A stretch of DNA of 64,000 bases from Ruminococcus sp. (GTDB taxonomy: Bacteria; Bacillota; Clostridia; Oscillospirales; Ruminococcaceae), in the NCBI GenBank assembly GCA_015066875.1, contig SVNM01000002.1, positions 23,868-87,867 on the forward strand, given 5' to 3'. The notes beneath the pieces were generated by a model that had not been told where the DNA came from, searched no databases, and worked only from the letters and a program-made list of their open reading frames with translations. Shown piece after piece: positions 14,928-42,729 of the stretch (positions are counted from its first letter, which is position 1; each line of letters begins with the position of its first letter). The position numbers and the translations under genes were made by a program.

Positions 14928-16094
14928 ATGACACAACTTCTTGTAAAACATTTTGTAAAGGACAGCGAAAATACCACCGATATACAGGTTCGTGAACGCT
15001 ACGGCACCCTCAGCAGTATTGTGGGGATTTTCTGCAATATCCTGTTGTTTCTTCTGAAATACATAATGGGAACGCTTTCAAACTCAATTGCTATTGTTTC
15101 CGACGCTTTCAATAACCTTTCAGACAGCGCAAGCTGTATCGTTACCCTTATGGGCTATAAAATCTCCGCAAAGCCCGCCGATAAGGATCACCCCTTCGGT
15201 CACGGACGCATGGAGTATCTTACTTCCCTTATTATTGCTACTGTTATCATTGTTATGGGCGTTGAGCTTATGAAAAGCTCGGTTTCAAAGATAATCAGTC
15301 CCGAAGAGGTTGAATTCCGTGCAGTTGTCCTTATATCGCTGATTTTGTCTGTTGCGGTAAAGCTGTGGCTATCTCGTTTCAACACTGTGCTGGGAAAGAA
15401 AATTAACTCTACGGTTATGCTTGCAACTGCCAAGGACAGCAAAAACGATGTTGTGGCTACGGCAATTACAATCGTTTCCCTTATCTGCTCGTTGTTTACC
15501 GACCTGCCTGTTGACGGAGTTATCGGTATTATAGTCTCACTTTTCGTTCTTAAAGCAGGTATCGAAATCATAAGAGATACCGTTGATGAGCTTCTCGGCA
15601 AGCCTGCTGACGCCGAAATCACCCGTCAGATCTGCAATATAGTCTGCCGTGACAGCCGTATAATCGGTATCCACGACCTTATTATCCATAACTACGGGCC
15701 GGGAAATATGTTCGGAAGCTGTCACGCCGAGATACGAAGCGATGAGGACTTTATCTCCGCTCACGACCTTATCGACCGCATTGAGCACGAAATCCACAAT
15801 AAGCTGAAAATTTCAATGTCTATCCATATGGACCCCATTGAGACCGACAACGCTCAGATAAATCACTGCAAAACCGTTGTTTCGGGTATTCTCAGAAAAA
15901 TCAGTCCTCGGCTCAGCTTCCACGATTTCCGTGCCGTTACAGGCGATACGCATACAAATCTCATCTTTGACGTTGTTATCCCCTTTGATATGGAGCTGAG
16001 CAACAGCGAAATCAAAAATCAAATCGACAACGCTCTGGCAGATGAGCCTGTAAAATACTACACAGTTATCACTTTCGACAGAGAATATACCTGA
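14928..16094 (+). CDS. Cation diffusion facilitator (CDF) family efflux protein
   Basis: A 388-residue CDF transporter that exchanges divalent metal for protons. Six helices occupy about 30-220. Metal-site motifs are SDAFNNLSDSASC (helix 2) and the helix-5 stretch DSKNDVVAT. HPFGHGRMEYL follows helix 2. The cytoplasmic C-terminal domain (about 225-388) is longer than the ~80-residue norm and carries a second module after residue 310. Metal specificity cannot be read with certainty. Start ATG at 14928 follows AAAGGGAG. Confidence 0.88.
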   Translation: MTQLLVKHFVKDSENTTDIQVRERYGTLSSIVGIFCNILLFLLKYIMGTLSNSIAIVSDAFNNLSDSASCIVTLMGYKISAKPADKDHPFGHGRMEYLTSLIIATVIIVMGVELMKSSVSKIISPEEVEFRAVVLISLILSVAVKLWLSRFNTVLGKKINSTVMLATAKDSKNDVVATAITIVSLICSLFTDLPVDGVIGIIVSLFVLKAGIEIIRDTVDELLGKPADAEITRQICNIVCRDSRIIGIHDLIIHNYGPGNMFGSCHAEIRSDEDFISAHDLIDRIEHEIHNKLKISMSIHMDPIETDNAQINHCKTVVSGILRKISPRLSFHDFRAVTGDTHTNLIFDVVIPFDMELSNSEIKNQIDNALADEPVKYYTVITFDREYT

Positions 16095-31364: not shown

Positions 31365-33939
31365 ATGAATTATTTTAATCAGGACGAAAAAACTGTTCTT
31401 GAAGCACTGGGAACCTCTCGTGAAAACGGTCTCAGTGACGCTCAGGTAACAGAAAGCCGTGAAAAACACGGCGCAAATGTAATTGCCGAAGAAAAGCCCA
31501 AAAGCATTTTCAAGGTTTTTCTTGAACAGTTTGCAGACCTTCTCGTAATTATCCTTATCATCGCGTCAATTATCTCTATGCTTACCGATAACGCCGAAAG
31601 TGCCATTGTTATCCTTGTGGTTATCACTATGAACGCTATCCTCGGTACTGTACAGCACGTTAAGGCTCAGAAGTCTCTGGCAAGCCTTAAAGCTATGAGC
31701 TCGCCCAATGCAAGAGTAATCAGAAACGGTCAGCAGGTTGAAATCCCCGCTTCTGAGGTCGTTGTAGGCGATATTCTTCTCATCGAAGCCGGAAACGTTG
31801 CCTCTGCTGACGGACGTATCCTTGAGTCTGCTTCTCTTCAGGTAAACGAAAGTGCTCTTACAGGTGAGTCACTTAACATTCTCAAATCCACAGAAAAAAT
31901 CGACAAAGAAGAGTTACCTCTCGGTGACAGAGTGAATATGATTTACTCAGGCTCTAATATCTCCAACGGACGAGGCGTTGTTGCTGTTACAGGCGTTGGT
32001 ATGGATACCGAGATTGGTAAAATTGCCTCACTTATGCAGAATGCCAAGAAAAAGACCACTCCGCTTCAGGCAAGCCTCAATCAGTTCAGCAAAATTCTTT
32101 CCTTCGTTATTATAGGAATTTGTATCGTTGTTTTTCTGCTTACAAAATTTATCAACGGACAGGCTTTGGACGATGCTCTTATGTTTGCTATCGCTCTTGC
32201 TGTTGCAGCTATTCCAGAAGCTCTCAGCTCTATTATTACTATATCCCTTGCTATCGGTACACAGAAAATGTCCAGGCAGAAGGCTATTATCAAGGACCTT
32301 AAGGCTGTTGAGGGACTGGGCTGTGTTTCAATTATCTGCTCAGACAAGACAGGTACTCTCACACAGAATAAAATGACTGTACGTGATACAACAGCTCCCA
32401 CCTTCAAGGCTACTCAGGAGCTTAAGCTGGCTATGGCACTCTGTAACGATGCCGCTATGTCTGAAAACGGCTGGCTGGGAGATCCTACAGAAACTGCTCT
32501 TTCAGCTTACCTTACCGAAGCTGAATATAATAAAATCCGTACAGAAAATCCTCGTATCGACGAAATTCCCTTCGACAGCGACAGAAAGCTTATGACTACC
32601 GTGCATATGTTCGGTTCTGAGCGTACCGCTTACACCAAGGGCGCTATGGACGTGCTTCTGCCCAGACTCAGATATGTCGTTGAGGATGAGGATATCCGTC
32701 CTATCAATCCTGAGGATCTTGAAGAAATCAGAAAGGCAAACCTTGAATATTCCGAAAACGGTATGCGTGTTCTGGCTTTTGCAAAGAAAATCCTTAATAG
32801 ACTCTGCTATAACTCTTGAGGACGAGTGCGATTACGCTTATGTAGGTCTTGTCGCTATGACCGATCCTCCCCGTGAGGAAAGCAAGACTGCCGTTGCAGA
32901 CTGTATCTCCGCAGGCATCAAGCCTATTATGATCACAGGCGACCACAAGCTTACCGCTATGGCTATCGCTAAGGAAATCGGTATCTTCAAGGAAGGCGAC
33001 AAGTGCCTTGACGGTACCGAGCTCGACGCTATTTCAGATGAAGAGCTTTCTGCTCAGCTTGAACAGATCTCTGTTTACGCAAGAGTTTCTCCTGTTCATA
33101 AAATCAGAATTGTTGACCTGTGGCAACAGAAAAACAAGGTAGTTGCTATGACAGGTGACGGTGTAAACGACGCTCCCGCACTTAAAAAGGCTGATATCGG
33201 TGTTGCTATGGGTATCACAGGTACCGAGGTTTCAAAGGACGCTGCTTCTATGATACTTGCCGACGACAACTTTGCTACCATTGTTAAGGCTGTTGCTAAC
33301 GGACGCTGTATCTACGGTAATATCAAAAACGCTATAAAGTTCCTGCTCGCAGGAAATACTGCTGCAATTATCGTGGTTCTTATTACTACTTTCTTCAATC
33401 TGCCACTGCCCTTTACTCCTGTACATCTTCTCTTCATCAACCTTCTTACCGACTCGCTTCCCGCTCTTGCCCTTTGTATGGAGCCTATGCAACCCGGTGT
33501 TATGAATGAAAAGCCACGTTCATCAAACGAATCTATCCTCAATAAGGAAACAGGCGTTTATATCCTCTTCCACAGTATCGTTATCGCTGTCTGTGTAATG
33601 ATCGCATTTATGATAGGCAATCAGGTTTCCGGAACTCTTGCAAGTACTATGGCTTTTGCTGTTCTTTGTCTTGCACGTCTCTTTGAGGGATTTGACAGCA
33701 GAGGTAAGTATTCTCTTGCTAAGCTTGGCTTTACAACCAATATGTTCTCTGTCGGAGCTTTCCTCGCAGGTGCAGGCTTCCTTGCCTGTGCGCTGTTTAT
33801 TACTCCCCTTCACGGCTTTATGAACATCGACAGTGCTTTCACAATGACAAATGCTCTTCAGGTTCTCGGTCTTGCATTTGTTCCCTTTGCAGTTACCCAG
33901 ATAGCAAGAATGATCAGAGAGGCTGTTACAAAGAAATAA
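31365..33939 (+). pseudogene. Calcium/manganese-type P-type ATPase, split by a single frameshift
   Basis: A P2A-type cation ATPase of about 857 residues if repaired. The first frame (31365-32819) holds the N-terminal cation domain, actuator loop (NESALTGES) and phosphorylation site CSDKTGTLTQNKM (Asp about 325). It stops at 32817-32819 after VLAFAKK. The next frame continues at SLIDSAITLEDECDYAYVG, then TDPPRE, hinge MTGDGVNDAPALKKADIGVAMG and the C-terminal helices to 33939. Removing one A from the run at 32787-32790 restores one open frame. This is either a true mutation or a sequencing error. Downstream of a Mn riboswitch, so Mn2+ or Ca2+ export is likely. Confidence 0.88.
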
Positions 33940-35444: not shown

Positions 35445-35936
35445 ATGTCAGATAACACTCTCCAGCAGAAAAGAAAAGCCTTCTGCTGTAATTACGTTCT
35501 TCTTGGAAATGTTGCCGAGGCTTCTGTAAGGGCAGGCTTTGACAAGTCTACAGCTCTGCTCGACGGTATCGACTGCCTTCGCTCTGCTTCCTGCCAAAGA
35601 CTGATTTCACGGCTGAGAGGTGCTCTTTCAGACGGCGGAAATGTCACTGCGGGGCTCAAGCGACTGGCTTTCGGCAACTGCTGTGACGCTGTTTACCTTG
35701 TTTTTGCAGACGAGCTTCCTCCCGCTGACGTAATTGCCGGGCTTGACCTGTTCAACGTTTCGGAAATCAAACGTGTCAAGGGCGGAGGCGTCGAGGTAAA
35801 ATTCTTCGACAGACAGAAGGCTCTGGAAAAGCTCTTTGAGCTGGAAAACTCTTACTCAGATCGTGACAGTGCAGTTTCTCTCATTGAGGCTCTTACCGAC
35901 AATCCCGCAAGGGAGGCTGATTTCTTTGAAGATTAA
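35445..35936 (+). CDS. Phage terminase small subunit-like protein
   Basis: A 163-residue protein resembling small terminase subunits, which recognise phage DNA for packaging. The N-terminal region LQQKRKAFCCNYVLLGNVAE, then ASVRAGFDKS follows the Terminase_2 HTH pattern (normally N-A-A-A-RAGY). The C-terminal part is helical with FFDRQKALEKLFELE. Identification leans on position directly before the large subunit, whose TTG start overlaps its end. Start ATG at 35445 follows AAAGGAGG. First gene of the phage-derived cassette. Confidence 0.78.
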   Translation: MSDNTLQQKRKAFCCNYVLLGNVAEASVRAGFDKSTALLDGIDCLRSASCQRLISRLRGALSDGGNVTAGLKRLAFGNCCDAVYLVFADELPPADVIAGLDLFNVSEIKRVKGGGVEVKFFDRQKALEKLFELENSYSDRDSAVSLIEALTDNPAREADFFED

Positions 35937-37173
35937 AAGGCTTTCGGATAAGCAGAAGCTCACTATGAACTGGTGGTCTAAGCCCGAATATCAGGGCTAT
36001 GACGCTATAATCTGCGACGGAGCCGTAAGAAGCGGTAAAACTCTTTCAATGTCGCTGGGATTTGTCTTCTGGGCTTCGGTATCCTTCAACGGCAGTACCT
36101 TCGCTATGTGCGGAAAAACCGTAACCTCGCTGAGAAGAAACGTTGTTACTCCCCTTATGAGTATGCTTTCAGAGCTGGGGTTTACCTGCTGTGAAAAGGT
36201 TAGCCGAAGCTATATCGACATTACTCTGCTGGGAAGGACCAACCGCTTTTATCTGTTCGGTGGCAAGGACGAGGGCTCGGCTTCGCTTATTCAGGGCATT
36301 ACTCTTTCGGGAGTTTTCCTTGACGAAGTTGCTCTTATGCCACGCTCCTTCGTAGAACAGGCTCTGGCAAGATGCTCGGTAAACGGTTCAAAGCTGTGGT
36401 TCAACTGCAATCCCGATAATCCCGCACACTGGTTCTACACAGAGTGGATCAGAAAGGCTGAGCAAAAGCGTGCCCTTTACCTCCACTTTACTATGGAGGA
36501 CAACCCTTCGCTGTCGCAAAAGCTGAAAAACCGATACAAGAGACTCTATTCAGGAGCCTTCTACGAAAGGTTTGTGCTGGGCAGATGGACTGCGTCAGAA
36601 GGTATCGTCTACCCAATGTTCAATCGTGAAAGCCACGTTTTTTCGGGAGATATCAGCTGTGAAAGGTATGTCATTTCCTGTGATTACGGTACGGTAAATC
36701 CCTCTTCCTTCGGCTTATGGGGCTATAGCAACGGAAAATGGCACCGCATACGTGAATACTACTATTCCTCAAGACGTGAAGGTATTTCACGCACTGATGA
36801 GGAGCATTATTCGGCTCTGAAAAAGCTTGCAGACGGTCTTTCAATCGAAAAAGTCATTGTAGACCCTTCCGCCTCAAGCTTTATCGAGTGTATCCGCAGA
36901 CACGGGAAATTCAGAGTCGTTAAGGCAGATAACGATGTTGTTACGGGTATCAGACGTGTGTGTGCCGTTTTAAAGCAGAATCAGCTTATGATTTCAGATT
37001 CCTGCACCGATATTTTAAGAGAGTTTTCACTGTACCGCTGGAATGAAAAATCAGCAGGCGACTTTCCCGTTAAGGAAAACGATCACGCTATGGACGATAT
37101 GCGGTATTTCGTTTCGGAAATGCTTTCAGACAAATCCGATGACGGATTTTTTGCACTTTCAGTTTCAAGATAA
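35926..37173 (+). CDS. Phage terminase large subunit (PBSX/Terminase_3-type)
   Basis: A 415-residue packaging ATPase-nuclease. Walker A region CDGAVRSGKTLSMSLG (about 33-48), Walker B LSGVFLDEVALM (about 128), and TNRFYLFGGKDEGSASLIQG. The nuclease domain has YVISCDYGTVNPSSFGLWG (about 247) and KVIVDPSASSF. Both catalytic halves look intact. The start is taken as TTG at 35926, 9 bases after GGGAGG, giving an 11-bp overlap with the small subunit. The longer in-frame ATG at 35836 lies deep in the previous gene. Confidence 0.9.
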   Translation: MKIKRLSDKQKLTMNWWSKPEYQGYDAIICDGAVRSGKTLSMSLGFVFWASVSFNGSTFAMCGKTVTSLRRNVVTPLMSMLSELGFTCCEKVSRSYIDITLLGRTNRFYLFGGKDEGSASLIQGITLSGVFLDEVALMPRSFVEQALARCSVNGSKLWFNCNPDNPAHWFYTEWIRKAEQKRALYLHFTMEDNPSLSQKLKNRYKRLYSGAFYERFVLGRWTASEGIVYPMFNRESHVFSGDISCERYVISCDYGTVNPSSFGLWGYSNGKWHRIREYYYSSRREGISRTDEEHYSALKKLADGLSIEKVIVDPSASSFIECIRRHGKFRVVKADNDVVTGIRRVCAVLKQNQLMISDSCTDILREFSLYRWNEKSAGDFPVKENDHAMDDMRYFVSEMLSDKSDDGFFALSVSR

Positions 37174-37219
37174 CCACTATAAGATAACTACTGTTCAATT
37201 CTCTTATTAAGGAGGAAAA

Positions 37220-38395
37220 ATGAAGCTTTTCAGAAAAAAAGAAAAAAACGGCTCTGTTGCAAAAAAGTCTCAGACAATTTATGCGCCTGAGCTTTACGGA
37301 GCTCAACGCTCATGCAGTGATGAATTCTCTCTTCCTGCCTCTGCCGAGTCTTTTGAAATGGAGCTCTACGACAGGCTGAGGTACTCTGTGCCCATTATCG
37401 ACGCTTCTCTTATGAAAATCGTCCGCCTTACAGGAGGCTTCCGTGTAATCTGCTCTGACGAAAAATATCAGAGCCAGCTGGATACGTTCCTTTCCGAAGT
37501 TCCTGTTGGCAATACAGGCAAGTCTATAAACGCTTTTGCAGATTGCTTTCTTGATAATCTTCTTACCTACGGAAGCGCTGTTGCTGAGCTTGTACCCGAT
37601 ATTCAGGGCAGATGCATCGCCGGAATTTACACTGGAAATCCCACCAACGTTAAGATTGTCACAGGGAAAAATCCCTTTGTCCGCCGTTACTGTGTAAAGC
37701 AGAGCGACGGCTCATACTCGGAAATCAGACACCCTGAGAGAATTCTCTATTCTTCCCTTACAGGCGGACATTCAGTGCTTCGCGGACTTCCCGCACTCAG
37801 CGGTATTCTTATGAAGATTTACCGCTGTATCGGTCAGAATTTTGACCGTGCAGGCAATGTGCGCTATGCCGTAACCTACCGCCCCTCAGGTGATGTGGGT
37901 GATGTTACTGCCTCTAAGGAGCGTGCTCTGCAGATTGCCCGTGAGTGGTCTGACGGTATGAACTGTGCCAAGTACGGACAGGTTAAGGACTTTATTGCTG
38001 TGGGAGATATCGACATCAAGGTTATCGGTGCCGAAAACCAGATGTTTGATACAAATATTCCCGTTCGTCAGCTTCTTGAACAGCTTATTGCCAAGCTTTC
38101 GATACCACCTTTTCTGCTTGGTCTCAGCTGGAGCTCTACCGAAAGAATGTCCTCACAGCAGGCGGATATTCTCACCACAGAGCTTGAATACTACAGACGA
38201 ATTCTCACACCCGTTATCCGTGATATAGGCAACGCCTACCTCTGCTCAAGAGGCTACAACGCTGTTTGCCGTGTTGAGTGGGATAACATCAATCTTCAGG
38301 ACGAACAGGCTCTTGCAGATGCTCGTCTTAAAAACGCTCAGGCAAGGGAAATCGAAATGCGTCTTGCGGGCGTTTCAGAAGAAAACAACGATTAA
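37220..38395 (+). CDS. Phage portal protein
   Basis: A 391-residue portal-like protein, the dodecameric ring through which phage DNA enters the head. Features: MELYDRLRYSVPIIDASLMK near the start, the central LLTYGSAVAELVPD, and the C-terminal SIPPFLLGLSWSSTERMSSQ with QADILTTELEYYRRIL, a typical SPP1/HK97-portal helical stretch. Position after the terminase supports it. Start ATG at 37220 follows TAAGGAGG. No frameshift or internal stop. Confidence 0.86.
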   Translation: MKLFRKKEKNGSVAKKSQTIYAPELYGAQRSCSDEFSLPASAESFEMELYDRLRYSVPIIDASLMKIVRLTGGFRVICSDEKYQSQLDTFLSEVPVGNTGKSINAFADCFLDNLLTYGSAVAELVPDIQGRCIAGIYTGNPTNVKIVTGKNPFVRRYCVKQSDGSYSEIRHPERILYSSLTGGHSVLRGLPALSGILMKIYRCIGQNFDRAGNVRYAVTYRPSGDVGDVTASKERALQIAREWSDGMNCAKYGQVKDFIAVGDIDIKVIGAENQMFDTNIPVRQLLEQLIAKLSIPPFLLGLSWSSTERMSSQQADILTTELEYYRRILTPVIRDIGNAYLCSRGYNAVCRVEWDNINLQDEQALADARLKNAQAREIEMRLAGVSEENND

Positions 38396-38416
38396 TTTTT
38401 TATGGAGGATATTTTT

Positions 38417-39376
38417 ATGTATAACGAAATCAGACTTGAAAAAGGACTTTATAATCTCAGCGGTAAAAGCTTTACTTCAGCTCTTGAAGAGCTTGACCCC
38501 TCTTCTGCTTACTGCGGAACACCTCTTGAAAAGCTTGATGCCTATGAGCGTCAGCTTAAGCGCTTCAACATCAGAATTTCAGGCCCTGAGTGTGACCGCG
38601 TTGAAAAATTCTTCTCTTCAACAGAATCTGCCGTACTCTTCCCCGAATTCATCGCCCGCAATATCAGAAAGGGCTTTGATGAGACAGTTATGTCTTCTGT
38701 ATGCGCAGTAAAGACCGTCTGTGGCTGTGGACAGTATCTTGGCTGTACTCTTGATGACAGCGCAGAGTATATTACTTCTCAGGAAGGCTCAGTTCTGCCC
38801 TCTGCTTCAGTAAGAGAAAGCGATACCGCTACTGTGCTTGCCAAGTACGGCAGACTTATCAGCGCTTCATACGAAGCTGTACGTCAGCAGAGACTTGACG
38901 TTTTCGGAGTTATGCTCAGAAGCATCGGCGTAAAACTTGCCTCTTCAGTAACTAAAAAGGCTGTTGAAATCCTTGCAGGCGATACAGCTTCAATCACAAC
39001 AGCTTCTCTTACCTACGCTGACCTTGCAAAGCTTTACGGCGAGTTCAACTGCTTTGATATGAACACAATTATCGTATCTCCCGCAGTTGCTTCAAATATT
39101 ATTGCTATGGAACAGCTTTCGGATACTACTGCCGATAAGGACGGCAAGCTTATGCTTCCCTTCGGCTGTGAGCTTGTAAAGACCTCTTCTGCCGATGACA
39201 ACAAGATTATCGGTATCGACAGAAACTTTGCCCTTGAGTTCATCACAAGCTCTGACCTTGTTATGGAGACTGATAAGCTCATCGACCGCCAGCTTGACCA
39301 GATCACTGTTTCTATCACCTGCGGTTTCAGAAAGCTTACTCCTGACGCTGTCAAGGTGCTTGAAATCACTGCCTGA
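38417..39376 (+). CDS. Phage major capsid protein-like
   Basis: A 319-residue protein in the capsid position. It has an N-terminal helical region, a middle FPEFIARNIRKGFDETVMSS segment, and a C-terminal region with FDMNTIIVSPAVASNIIAME and LDQITVSITCGFRKLTPDAV, like HK97-fold capsids that end with a receptor-like beta domain. I infer the HK97 fold from position, size and pattern, not from a confirmed match. Start ATG at 38417 is preferred to 38402 because GGAGG (38404-38408) would otherwise lie inside the gene. Confidence 0.75.
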   Translation: MYNEIRLEKGLYNLSGKSFTSALEELDPSSAYCGTPLEKLDAYERQLKRFNIRISGPECDRVEKFFSSTESAVLFPEFIARNIRKGFDETVMSSVCAVKTVCGCGQYLGCTLDDSAEYITSQEGSVLPSASVRESDTATVLAKYGRLISASYEAVRQQRLDVFGVMLRSIGVKLASSVTKKAVEILAGDTASITTASLTYADLAKLYGEFNCFDMNTIIVSPAVASNIIAMEQLSDTTADKDGKLMLPFGCELVKTSSADDNKIIGIDRNFALEFITSSDLVMETDKLIDRQLDQITVSITCGFRKLTPDAVKVLEITA

Positions 39377-39439
39377 TATTATTCTTGATTACGGCGAAGG
39401 AGCTTCAATGCTCCTTCTGCCATTTTTTAGGAGGTTTTT

Positions 39440-40294
39440 ATGATCAACAATCAGCTTGAAAAAATCAACAGGTTAACACGCCGTCCCCTTACTGCCGATG
39501 AGGTCTATATTTTCAGCGTTGTGCTCTGCGATAACGAAACAGACCGCGACTGTGAATGTTTCTCAGATGAAGCCTTAAGCCAGCTTCAGAAGCTTTTTAT
39601 CGGCAAAACAGGCATTTCAGACCACGATCCCAGGGCTTCTAACCAGAATGCAAGAATTTTCGATACTGAGCTTGTTACAGATGACTCACGCACAACTAAA
39701 AACGGCAAGCCCTACAAGTATCTCAAGGCTTCTGTCTATATGGTGAGAACTGATGAAAACCGCTCGCTTATTGCTGAAATCGACGGCGGAATTAAGAAAG
39801 AGGTAAGCATTTCCTGTTCAGCTTCAAGAAAAATCTGCTCAGTCTGTGGCTGTGACAAGACAAAAACAGGCTGTGCTCACGTTAAAGGCAAGACCTATAA
39901 CGGAAAGCTTTGCCACACCATTCTCGATAACATCACCGACGCTTATGAGTGGAGCTTTGTTGCTGTGCCCGCTCAGATTTCTGCCGGAGTTACAAAGAAG
40001 CTCAGCTTTGACGAGAATGTTCAGTCTGCTTCGCCCTCCTCTGACGCTGTTGCCGATATCAAGGCGTGCAATGATGAGCTCAGACGCGATATCTGCCGTC
40101 TTGCTTTTTTTGCCGGAGGAAAAACTGCCTCTGATACAGCCGTGATATCCGCAGAAAATCTCACAACAAAACAGCTTATAGCAATGAAAAAGTCCTTTGA
40201 GGAAAAGCTTAACGGCGTTTCCTGTGAGATACAGCTCTATTCGGGAGTAAACAGCTCTGACAACGGCTCACAGGACGCTTTTTCAATGAAATAG
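39440..40294 (+). CDS. Phage head-associated protein, possible prohead protease
   Basis: A 284-residue protein. The N-terminal part (DEVYIFSVVLCDNETDRDCE, KTGISDHDPRASNQNARIFD) and the middle part have a Cys/His cluster (CSVCGCDKTKTGCAHVKGK, then CHTIL). EWSFVAVPAQISAGVTKKL follows. These resemble phage head-maturation proteases with a late Cys-rich insert. The catalytic residues cannot be assigned with confidence. It lies after the capsid gene rather than before it, an unusual order. Start ATG at 39440 follows AGGAGG. Confidence 0.6.
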   Translation: MINNQLEKINRLTRRPLTADEVYIFSVVLCDNETDRDCECFSDEALSQLQKLFIGKTGISDHDPRASNQNARIFDTELVTDDSRTTKNGKPYKYLKASVYMVRTDENRSLIAEIDGGIKKEVSISCSASRKICSVCGCDKTKTGCAHVKGKTYNGKLCHTILDNITDAYEWSFVAVPAQISAGVTKKLSFDENVQSASPSSDAVADIKACNDELRRDICRLAFFAGGKTASDTAVISAENLTTKQLIAMKKSFEEKLNGVSCEIQLYSGVNSSDNGSQDAFSMK

Positions 40295-40308
40295 GAGGTG
40301 CTTTCTAT

Positions 40309-40689
40309 ATGAATTTTGAAGCTGTAAAGGCTCTTTTTGCTCTTTTTACAGGCCTTGAGGATACGGAAAAGTATCTGCCCATTCTGAACTTCGCCGTAAG
40401 GGAGACAACTGATATGCTTGCTTCGCCCAAGTACGCTTCAGACAGCCGTATCGAGTTTCTCTGCGCTTCTGTGGCAAATTACCGATTTGCTCAGATTGAA
40501 TCTGCACGAGGCTACACTCAGTCCACCTATGCAGGAAATATCTCTGCTGTGAAAAAAGACAGCGGAGCTCTTAAATATGCCTGTGACCTTGTGAAAGACT
40601 ATATGACAGTTTGCAGAAGTCTTCTGAAAACCTCGGATTTTGTGTTTATCAGCTCTGACACGCAAGCGTATGACGCAGAGGAGGTTTAA
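40309..40689 (+). CDS. Phage head-tail connector-like protein
   Basis: A 126-residue helical protein located where head-tail connector (gp6-like) proteins are encoded. It has a conserved-looking pattern of paired helices (ALFTGLEDTEKYLPILNFAV, then ASDSRIEFLCASVANYRFAQ). Assignment rests mainly on position and size. Start ATG at 40309 follows GGAGG with a long gap. It overlaps nothing; the next gene starts 5 bp after its stop. Confidence 0.55.
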   Translation: MNFEAVKALFALFTGLEDTEKYLPILNFAVRETTDMLASPKYASDSRIEFLCASVANYRFAQIESARGYTQSTYAGNISAVKKDSGALKYACDLVKDYMTVCRSLLKTSDFVFISSDTQAYDAEEV

Positions 40690-40693
40690 GTTT

Positions 40694-41101
40694 ATGATTA
40701 AGGATATACTCAATCAGATAAGTTCATCTCTTTCATCTTTCGGAGTTAACAGCGTTTACACTGCCTTTGACAATATTCCCATAAGCAAGAAGGAATCACG
40801 CTATATCGTGGTTTCCGTTGACAGCTTTGAAACTGCTTCGCCTATTTTTTCAGACCTTAGCATTTTCCTTCCCTATAAGGCTGTAGCAGAGCTTTCTGTG
40901 ATTGCTCCCTGTACGTCTTCTCTTGCAGAGCTTTACGATTATTTCGATTCAAAGCTTCTTCCTCTTATGGACAAGCTTGGCTCGCTTACAAGTGCTCTCA
41001 GGGGAGTTTCAATGAAGTATGACTCCAACATAAACCGCCTTGTTATGAAAATTCAGCTTTCCGTTTCAGGCATTTCACGTATCGAAAGGAGCGATGTGTA
41101 A
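40694..41101 (+). CDS. Phage-like minor structural protein (tail-completion type)
   Basis: A 135-residue protein of mixed alpha/beta pattern (MIKDILNQISSSLSSFGV; KESRYIVVSVDSFETASPIF), with the size and place of phage tail-completion or tail-terminator proteins. Not recognised by family. Start ATG at 40694 follows GGAGG with 9-bp spacing; an earlier in-frame start lies inside the previous gene. Its stop overlaps the region of the next ribosome site. Confidence 0.55.
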   Translation: MIKDILNQISSSLSSFGVNSVYTAFDNIPISKKESRYIVVSVDSFETASPIFSDLSIFLPYKAVAELSVIAPCTSSLAELYDYFDSKLLPLMDKLGSLTSALRGVSMKYDSNINRLVMKIQLSVSGISRIERSDV

Positions 41102-41102
41102 T

Positions 41103-41504
41103 ATGACCGCCCAGAATTACGACTCGGTAACTCTCAGAAAGGCATATCCCGTGCGTGTGGGAGATTTCGTTATGTACTGCGAAAGCTTCAGGGCTGAGGG
41201 CACAGCTGATTTCTCTCAGCAGTCTACGGTAAACGGTGATACGGTTATCTCGTCATCTGCAAGAAGAGCTCTTAAAATCACTGTAAAGGGCAGAATTATC
41301 GACGTTTATCAGCCACTTAGAATTATCCTCAAAACCGACAGCTTTCAGTCTGCGGGAGGTAAATGCAATGTAGAGTACCGTGGACTCGTCTTTAATCAGT
41401 GCAGTGTGGAAAACTTCATTGCCGAGGATAAGGGTGACGATTACATCTATGCTACAATAACTCTGCTTACTTCCGATACTGCCCACGAAAAAGAGGTGAG
41501 CTGA
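41103..41504 (+). CDS. Phage-like structural protein of unknown type
   Basis: A 133-residue beta-rich protein (YPVRVGDFVMYCESFRAEGT; RALKITVKGRIIDVYQPL; DDYIYATITLLTSD). The periodic strands are like tail or baseplate proteins, but no family is recognised. Start ATG at 41103 is favoured over 41094, which is only 2 bases after AAAGGAG. The stop is one base before the next start, so the genes are coupled. Confidence 0.55.
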   Translation: MTAQNYDSVTLRKAYPVRVGDFVMYCESFRAEGTADFSQQSTVNGDTVISSSARRALKITVKGRIIDVYQPLRIILKTDSFQSAGGKCNVEYRGLVFNQCSVENFIAEDKGDDYIYATITLLTSDTAHEKEVS

Positions 41505-41505
41505 T

Positions 41506-42432
41506 ATGAACGTCAGGCTTGTTCTTATTAAAACCGACGGCTCTCAGATAACCGAAAACAATATCCTTTCCTTTACCTTCAGGAAAGAGATGTACCTTGC
41601 CTATACTTTGCTCAATGCACGTTTTATGGCTGAAAACGCGGACCTTTCCGATATCGCTCAGGTGCTTTTTTATGCCGGTGAAAAGCTTATTCATCACGGT
41701 CTGCTTGACTCTGCAAGACTCTCACGCAATGAGGCGGGAAGCTTCGTTTCCCTTTCTTCAAGAGGCTTTACCTCTCAGCTTTGCCAGAATCAGATTGAGC
41801 CCGGTCTTGTGGATAATATCTCCGTCAACACTCTTATGGACGGCTACTATGCCCTTCCCTTTGTGACTCACGAGGATAATTCCGACACAAGCAGTTATAT
41901 CTACATCAGGAATAACTCAACTATGTGGGACGGAATTGTAAACCTTTCCTGTAAGCTTACAGGGATTTATCCCTACATAAGAGGTACAAACTGCGTGAGA
42001 ATTACCGATGAGCAGTCGCCCGCAAGCTTCACCTACACTGATGACAATATCATTGAATCGGGCGTTGATGAAGAGTACAAAGCGCTTCTCAGCCATTTTC
42101 ATATGTCTGATATCAACGGGGATTTCGGTGTATATTACCTTGAAAATCAGTCAGCTCTTGCCCATAACATAGTCCGCCACAAATTTTTCGAGCTCGATAT
42201 GCAGTTTCTTTACAATCCCTCTCAGGCTCTTGATTACAGAAGCAAGTATTCCTCAAGAGCAAGCAAGTGCTGTTATGTAAAGTACTCAGGCTACAACGGC
42301 GAGGACCTTTCTGATGTTATGTCCTTCGGTGAGCTTGAAAACGTGCGTATCTGCAGAATTATCATACACGGCGACAGCAATGGCATTACCACCGAAACAG
42401 GCACCTTCTTTGACGGCTTCCGCCAGCAGTAA
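41506..42432 (+). CDS. Phage baseplate hub/tail-associated protein (XkdQ-like)
   Basis: A 308-residue protein resembling the hub proteins of contractile-tail phages (XkdQ/gpD-like). A beta N-terminal domain (LVLIKTDGSQITENNILSFT) leads to the region GEKLIHHGLLDSARLSRNEA, where a small-beta-barrel hub motif would be. SVNTLMDGYYALPF and a C-terminal split beta domain follow. It is the last phage-like gene: no tail tube, sheath, tape measure, fibre, holin or lysin gene is present. Start ATG at 41506 follows GAGGTGAGCTGAT. Confidence 0.6.
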   Translation: MNVRLVLIKTDGSQITENNILSFTFRKEMYLAYTLLNARFMAENADLSDIAQVLFYAGEKLIHHGLLDSARLSRNEAGSFVSLSSRGFTSQLCQNQIEPGLVDNISVNTLMDGYYALPFVTHEDNSDTSSYIYIRNNSTMWDGIVNLSCKLTGIYPYIRGTNCVRITDEQSPASFTYTDDNIIESGVDEEYKALLSHFHMSDINGDFGVYYLENQSALAHNIVRHKFFELDMQFLYNPSQALDYRSKYSSRASKCCYVKYSGYNGEDLSDVMSFGELENVRICRIIIHGDSNGITTETGTFFDGFRQQ

Positions 42433-42447
42433 CATAAGCTCTGCCGT

Positions 42448-42498
42448 TTTCATATAATATGGTATCAGATATTTTTTCTACGGAGCTATTATATGAAA
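42448..42498 (+). promoter_or_regulatory. Perfect 12-bp inverted repeat covering the FeoA start codon
   Basis: TTTCATATAATA (42448-42459) and TATTATATGAAA (42487-42498) are perfect complements. The second arm includes the ATG (42493-42495) and the loop holds the CGGAG ribosome site. The first arm also contains TATAAT. It could be a translation-blocking hairpin or a dyad operator. Confidence 0.6.
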
Positions 42499-42729
42499 GA
42501 TTTATGTTCCCTCAGTTCGCTTACAGAGGGCGGAAAATGCATTGTCCGCAGACTTTCCGACGATGTGAAAATGAGAAATCGTCTTTCTTCCCTCGGTCTT
42601 ATCGAAGGCACCTGTGTTACCTGTATGATGAAAAGCTTTTCCGGCGACCTTTCCGCCTTTCTTATCCGCGGAGCTGTTATCGCCCTTCGCAATAAAGACT
42701 CTGAAAAAATTATGGCAGAGCCTATATAA
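42493..42729 (+). CDS. feoA: FeoA-domain protein
   Basis: A 78-residue FeoA-type SH3-like domain (LCSLSSLTEGGKCIVRRLSD; RNRLSSLGLIEGTCVTCMM; FLIRGAVIALRNKDSEKI). FeoA assists the FeoB Fe2+ transporter; isolated FeoA-domain proteins are common in Clostridia. No feoB adjoins, so an iron role is plausible but unproven. Start ATG at 42493 follows CGGAG. It lies between the phage-like cassette and a convergent symporter gene. Confidence 0.85.
   Translation: MKDLCSLSSLTEGGKCIVRRLSDDVKMRNRLSSLGLIEGTCVTCMMKSFSGDLSAFLIRGAVIALRNKDSEKIMAEPI

Follow-up and report, generated by a model that had tools for sequence, protein, structure and literature searches.

A vertically inherited DNA-packaging cassette, probably of the gene-transfer-agent kind, in Ruminococcus and related gut Clostridia, with a reduced tail in one host clade

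The nine genes of the cassette

The stretch of DNA analysed here, which we call the window (64,000 nucleotides), belongs to a 2.25 Mb draft genome that is 88% complete. An ORF scan of the window places nine close-set reading frames on the forward strand at 35445-42432 with zero internal stops, i.e. the packed row of intact genes described in the initial annotation is indeed present (Table 1). Close named relatives of the locus belong to Ruminococcus, for the most part to R. flavefaciens.

Table 1. Genes of the cassette, with window positions and the evidence for each assignment.
Gene	Assignment	Position	Strand	Evidence
g1	TerS, small terminase subunit	35445..35936	+	PF03592 5e-10, profile positions 2-127 of 141; median omega 0.16
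g2	TerL, large terminase subunit	35836..37173	+	PF03237 3e-16; phrog_2 7e-47
g3	portal	37220..38395	+	phrog_30703 4e-132
g4	major capsid protein	38402..39376	+	PF25209 2e-10; phrog_3922 1e-67
g5	scaffold/prohead-protease-like, putative	39440..40294	+	phrog_16951 6e-96 (unknown function), sole family match
g6	candidate head-tail connector	40309..40689	+	position; profile match 2.7e-20 to the long-form equivalent
g7	candidate tail terminator/neck protein	40691..41101	+	profile match 9e-6 to the long-form pre-sheath gene
g8	tail-tube/tube-initiator fold, predicted one-ring adaptor	41094..41504	+	AlphaFold model pLDDT 87; Foldseek
g9	predicted tail hub, 308 aa	41506..42432	+	profile match 6e-24 to the long-form hub

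Of the gene names given in the initial annotation, those of TerS, TerL, portal and capsid are borne out by family models. The capsid and portal profiles retrieved nothing relevant among the PDB sequences. Since the PF03592 match of TerS starts at profile position 2, the protein keeps the N-terminal part of its domain. The true start of TerL is probably close to the TerS stop. The three nuclease aspartates of TerL (ORF residues 283, 343 and 420) are unchanged in 71 of 71 genomes, and in the same 71 genomes the Walker A lysine and the Walker B DE are invariant or nearly so. The model of g5 (pLDDT 83) consists of a beta domain and a long C-terminal helix; a fold search against the PDB gave no match at E<=0.001, therefore the label 'protease-like' stays putative. 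In the lineages examined g5 adjoins the capsid gene or is one gene off, and the order of the two is reversed in the R. flavefaciens group.

The genes g6-g9 gave no convincing match to family models. Sequence comparison supports g9 as a hub indirectly, as the hub gene of the long-form cassettes described below, a relative of g9, matches phrog_177 ('baseplate hub', 3e-15). With Foldseek, g8 matches diffocin baseplate chains (4e-6) and the RcGTA virion chain 6tba_50 (4e-4). The claim that tail genes are missing needs a slight correction, since g8 is a tube-like ring protein and g9 a hub. A curiosity of one relative is a tandem repeat within the cassette: the gap between TerL and portal contains two near-identical ORFs of 65-68 aa (L082:9572-9953).

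Chromosomal surroundings

The neighbours of the cassette are ordinary chromosomal genes, as stated earlier: a VanY carboxypeptidase, a P-type ATPase and PFOR upstream, and FeoA, a Na/Pi cotransporter, a two-component system and ThrE downstream, the FeoA-like gene (42493-42729) lying directly after the hub gene. The cation-transporting P-type ATPase gene just upstream (31365-33939) is split into two overlapping frames (484 + 421 aa), whereas it is a single ORF of 862 aa in the relative L104; the split is either a frameshift or an assembly error.

Several features of a mobile element were searched for. Integrase and replication genes are absent from the cassette and the adjoining flanks, and the cassette contains no lysis or receptor-binding gene. 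A tRNA search of the window found none, and a search for att-like direct repeats also found none, the best pair being 26 nt long at 77% identity; on integrase, replication and lysis genes and on the repeats the initial annotation holds. Its statement on host-like codon use is confirmed as well, since the pooled distance of the cassette (0.061) is inside the range of host genes (0.055-0.167); the TerL of another prophage in the same genome is at 0.159. A second terminase-like match in this genome (L002, on contig G000:C105) was rejected as a part of the system, as it is an ordinary prophage terminase next to a different portal. Two relatives carry a tyrosine-integrase-like gene about 0.6 kb upstream of the cassette (L098:5768-6940 and L101:6497-7669; the integrases are 68% identical), probably the end of a conjugative element.

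Distribution

The portal gene, present in one copy per genome, was found in 111 of the 120 genomes sampled from the genus (63 of 65 good ones), in 67 of 149 from the family (53 of 111 good ones) and in 70 of 394 from the order (67 of 314 good ones), where the bearers belong to families f1, f2, f7, f14, f15 and f24. In a class-wide sample there was no convincing match beyond the order, only two borderline ones with E about 1e-4. The cassette recurs in relatives, and its chromosomal position is shared with the closest relative and among the members of a subclade. Its presence in just one strain, which the initial annotation had named as a refutation, is excluded. As half of the good genomes of the family do not have it, the cassette is dispensable outside the genus. 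Of 66 named loci, 54 have the full set of nine genes. Three of the 12 incomplete ones break off behind gene four, where the contig apparently ends; in another the MCP is masked, and the remaining eight lack one or two genes.

Among 50,697 phage records we found no isolated phage with a close copy of the cassette. The only close relatives are five unverified faecal scaffolds (38-48% identity), and the largest of these (L160; MT835508.1, 'Bacteriophage sp.', 46.7 kb, faecal) is bacterial chromosome, with rnf and spc ribosomal genes around a short cassette. Its inclusion in the phage set reflects either contamination or packaged host DNA. Homologues also occur on IMG/VR contigs, as would be expected if the cassette were the head part of a phage lineage, still undiscovered and restricted to this order, whose early genes are frequently lost; the similarity of the cassettes would then stem from repeated infection. 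However, these contigs are short, reaching 15.5 kb at most, and what they contain is the cassette; the longest starts with a large ORF that is not phage-like. Together with the missing isolated carrier, the single copy per genome and the tree congruence presented next, this makes a recurrently infecting phage lineage highly improbable.

Inheritance and selection

We compared a cassette tree built from portal and TerL with a single-gene host tree (rpoB) for 71 genomes of 6 families. The trees have 31 of 68 splits in common, as against a random mean of 0.2, and of the 28 cassette splits with a support of >=0.95, 19 are also present in the rpoB tree and one is contradicted. The Mantel correlation between cassette and rpoB is 0.78 (the highest value in 999 permutations was 0.15), and it is 0.81 within family f1 and 0.84 within f24. 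The cassette is inherited vertically with its host across the order. Within subclades the cassettes also adjoin the same chromosomal genes: trmL adjoins TerS in three genera, coaD and rsmD follow the hub in L106, L107, L110-L112 and G114, feoA is the next gene downstream of the hub in 30 of 63 named loci, and a P-type ATPase is located upstream both in the window and in its closest relative, L104.

Selection was estimated from pairs with 0.1<dS<1.2 among genomes of the R. flavefaciens group and neighbouring ones. The median dN/dS (omega) is between 0.10 and 0.28 for all nine genes, i.e. the purifying selection for which the initial annotation had proposed a test on capsid and terminase acts on the whole cassette.

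These results bear on the possibility that the cassette is the remnant of a decaying prophage, kept by chance. Phage structural genes without the rest of the phage are what such a remnant would leave behind. Nevertheless, purifying selection acts on the nine genes, descent is vertical throughout the order, nearly all loci have the full gene set, codon usage is host-like, and the relatives show neither neutral evolution nor frequent stop codons, so we regard a remnant as extremely improbable. The preference of the initial annotation for a domesticated module over a decaying prophage is supported by recurrence, purifying selection and host-congruent trees, and no detached baseplate J gene was found in the genome (88% complete). 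That the nine genes are intact and pass from parent to offspring throughout Ruminococcus and many relatives suggests that the bacteria use the cassette themselves. Quite probably, it encodes a DNA-packaging particle of the gene-transfer-agent (GTA) kind that has been domesticated and is passed on vertically.

Long and short forms

The cassettes of the relatives fall into three classes. In class A, the capsid and connector genes are followed by genes for a sheath (phrog_279, 6e-28), tube, LysM protein, hub, spike, gp25, baseplate J, gpI and fibre. Class B is without the sheath. Class C, the form found in the window, has only g6-g9 beyond the head genes, and no sheath gene was found in short-form loci. 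By profile, g6, g7 and g9 are homologous to the connector, pre-sheath and hub genes of class A, respectively (Table 1). A baseplate-J profile had no match in the window genome, detached or otherwise; in the class C clade its only finds were a weak fragment, in G127, and a gene of G132 that lies on another contig.

In the host tree, the class C genomes studied in detail group together as a single clade. The window form, a derivative with a reduced tail, is restricted to this clade, and the big tail loss probably happened once. From its wide spread we infer that class A is ancestral, and the cassette most likely goes back to a contractile-tailed phage that was captured by an ancestor of the order. 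Two further loci should be mentioned in this context. In the class A locus L127 the gene at the tape-measure position (15390-15782) is just 130 aa long, so that its contractile tail would be expected to be extremely short. In L303 (G403, family f24) the cassette seems to stop after TerS, TerL, portal, g5, capsid, g6 and g7; here another family may have lost the tail independently.

A head and terminase set with almost no tail genes is also characteristic of capsid-forming satellites (cfPICI-like), so that the cassette could be read as the head and packaging genes of a mobile island which borrows its tails from helper phages. The ordinary prophage terminase on another contig of the same genome would agree with this. 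However, in other genera the operon of the relatives itself includes a sheath and a baseplate, the window is without integrase, replication gene and att repeats, and the near-universal presence in the genus and the vertical inheritance evident from tree congruence speak against mobility. We find a satellite very unlikely and keep to a domesticated particle maintained by the host.

Scattered genes in sub-megabase genomes

In two very small genomes, G068 (0.7 Mb) and G088 (0.9 Mb), the GTA-like genes are at unlinked loci and largely intact (L124, L126, L308, L309 and L310). G068 has three unlinked stretches, namely the portal, the capsid with g5, and the rest, while in G088 the portal is apart from decoration, g5 and capsid. 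The flanks are cellular genes such as ABC transporters and TsaE. Portal and capsid are full length in both genomes, as is TerL in G068; between the two genomes the portals are 57.8% and the capsids 58.9% identical. On the other hand, three proteins of G068 are truncated: TerS, which is down to 107 aa and has no N-terminal part, baseplate J and gpI. An operon that is broken up while its proteins are still intact is what a host-maintained system predicts.

A proposed function and its alternative

We propose that a small capsid would assemble with g5 at its core and be filled with DNA by TerS and TerL through the portal, that g6-g7 would seal the neck, and that g8-g9 would provide a minimal one-ring adaptor and hub in place of a real tail. 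The cargo is presumably host DNA in capsid-sized pieces, since an origin is missing, as are genes for integration, replication and regulation, and nothing points to independent spread. The packaged pieces might be freed by rare lysis and then taken up by relatives. Three points weigh against this reading: the cassette encodes no lysis or receptor-binding protein, half of the good genomes in the family do without it, and its TerS retains the N-terminal portion of the domain, unlike what is described for the TerS of FpGTA (see below). Particle production, host DNA cargo, release and transfer by Ruminococcus are what we infer from the gene content and its history.

The particle may also serve a use other than gene transfer, such as kin killing, DNA disposal or altruistic lysis, while still packaging host DNA. 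Of the tail just a ring and a hub are left: the cassette encodes neither baseplate nor fibre nor sheath, and baseplate J is missing from the genome. There is also a precedent in PBSX, whose particles take up 13 kb of B. subtilis DNA but do not inject it (PMC7667829). The authors who described FpGTA, the GTA of Faecalibacterium prausnitzii, likewise leave non-transfer roles open and do not show delivery into recipient cells (PMC12946183). Yet class C has neither sheath nor tube, so a contractile killing particle is unlikely; the strict conservation of the portal and of the TerL catalytic residues suggests that filling with DNA matters, and the hub and tube-like ring were kept. All in all, we consider a use other than transfer unlikely, and continue with gene transfer as the preferred function.

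A broader hypothesis, towards which we lean only slightly, is that the cassettes represent an ancient GTA lineage that spans an order of gut Clostridia and is probably older than the split of the families. Its tail would have been lost stepwise, from contractile to sheath-less and then, in the ancestor of the Ruminococcus clade, to capsid, connector, one ring and hub. The lineage would now be near-core in Ruminococcus and scattered in sub-megabase genomes, and the 4.6 kb DNA packets of R. callidus, a species of the genus Ruminococcus, would originate from it. A particle holding 4.6 kb could not spread its own genes, as the cassette is 7 kb long.

To our knowledge, GTAs are documented in few lineages, and the sole experimentally supported one of gut bacteria dates from 2026 and concerns one genus. 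If the hypothesis is true, a dominant fibre-degrading genus would have, near-universally, a standing, cell-encoded route of DNA exchange in gut and rumen, and the three classes would form a natural series showing how much tail a DNA-delivery particle needs.

Comparison with known systems

It is instructive to compare the cassette with other head-and-packaging systems. Capsid-forming PICIs resemble the window form in having head, portal and terminase genes without a tail. They are mobile, however, and carry integrase, replication and regulatory genes as well as att sites; of these, no integrase, replication module or att site was found at the window cassette. PBSX is a domesticated phage element of a gram-positive host that packages random host DNA, and the long-form relatives of the window cassette have a sheath, a LysM protein, a hub and a baseplate. 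But PBSX has regulatory and lysis genes and forms a contractile particle that kills, whereas the window form has no sheath, tube, baseplate or lysis genes.

RcGTA and the other alphaproteobacterial GTAs also consist of chromosomal, vertically inherited head and packaging genes, which in some hosts are dispersed, as in G068 and G088, and the fold of g8 is shared with a chain of the RcGTA virion. The differences are in the host phylum and in the tail, which is full and non-contractile in RcGTA, as opposed to at most one tube-like ring and a hub in the window form.

Another related system is FpGTA, published in January 2026 (Nat Commun, PMC12946183). According to that report, FpGTA I, with genes for TerS, TerL, portal, scaffold and capsid, forms 40 nm particles containing 8.4-8.9 kb of host DNA, and R. 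callidus DNA is packaged as 4.6 kb pieces for which the text consulted gives no locus (PMC12946183). Host DNA as the presumed cargo of the window cassette would be in line with both observations. Compared by gene content rather than by sequence, FpGTA and the window cassette are alike in belonging to gut Clostridia, in having TerS, TerL, portal, scaffold and capsid in one operon, and in being without replication genes. The FpGTA accessions RCH50851.1 (portal) and RCH50849.1 (capsid) suggest one intervening gene, as in the R. bicirculans-type cassettes of this work. On the other hand, FpGTA I has ten ORFs in 10.5 kb while the window cassette has nine in 7 kb, and FpGTA includes another operon, for baseplate, fibre, RBP, holin and endolysin; in the window genome (88% complete), a search with a baseplate-J profile gave no match. 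The TerS of FpGTA is described as having no obvious DNA-binding domain; that of the window keeps the N-terminal part of its domain.

The traits of a GTA that are present at the cassette are chromosomal head and packaging genes without replication or integration genes, vertical inheritance and purifying selection. Order-wide vertical inheritance, tail reduction and gene scattering are new here, and the packaging of 4.6 kb pieces in R. callidus, so far unexplained, now has a named gene cluster as a candidate.
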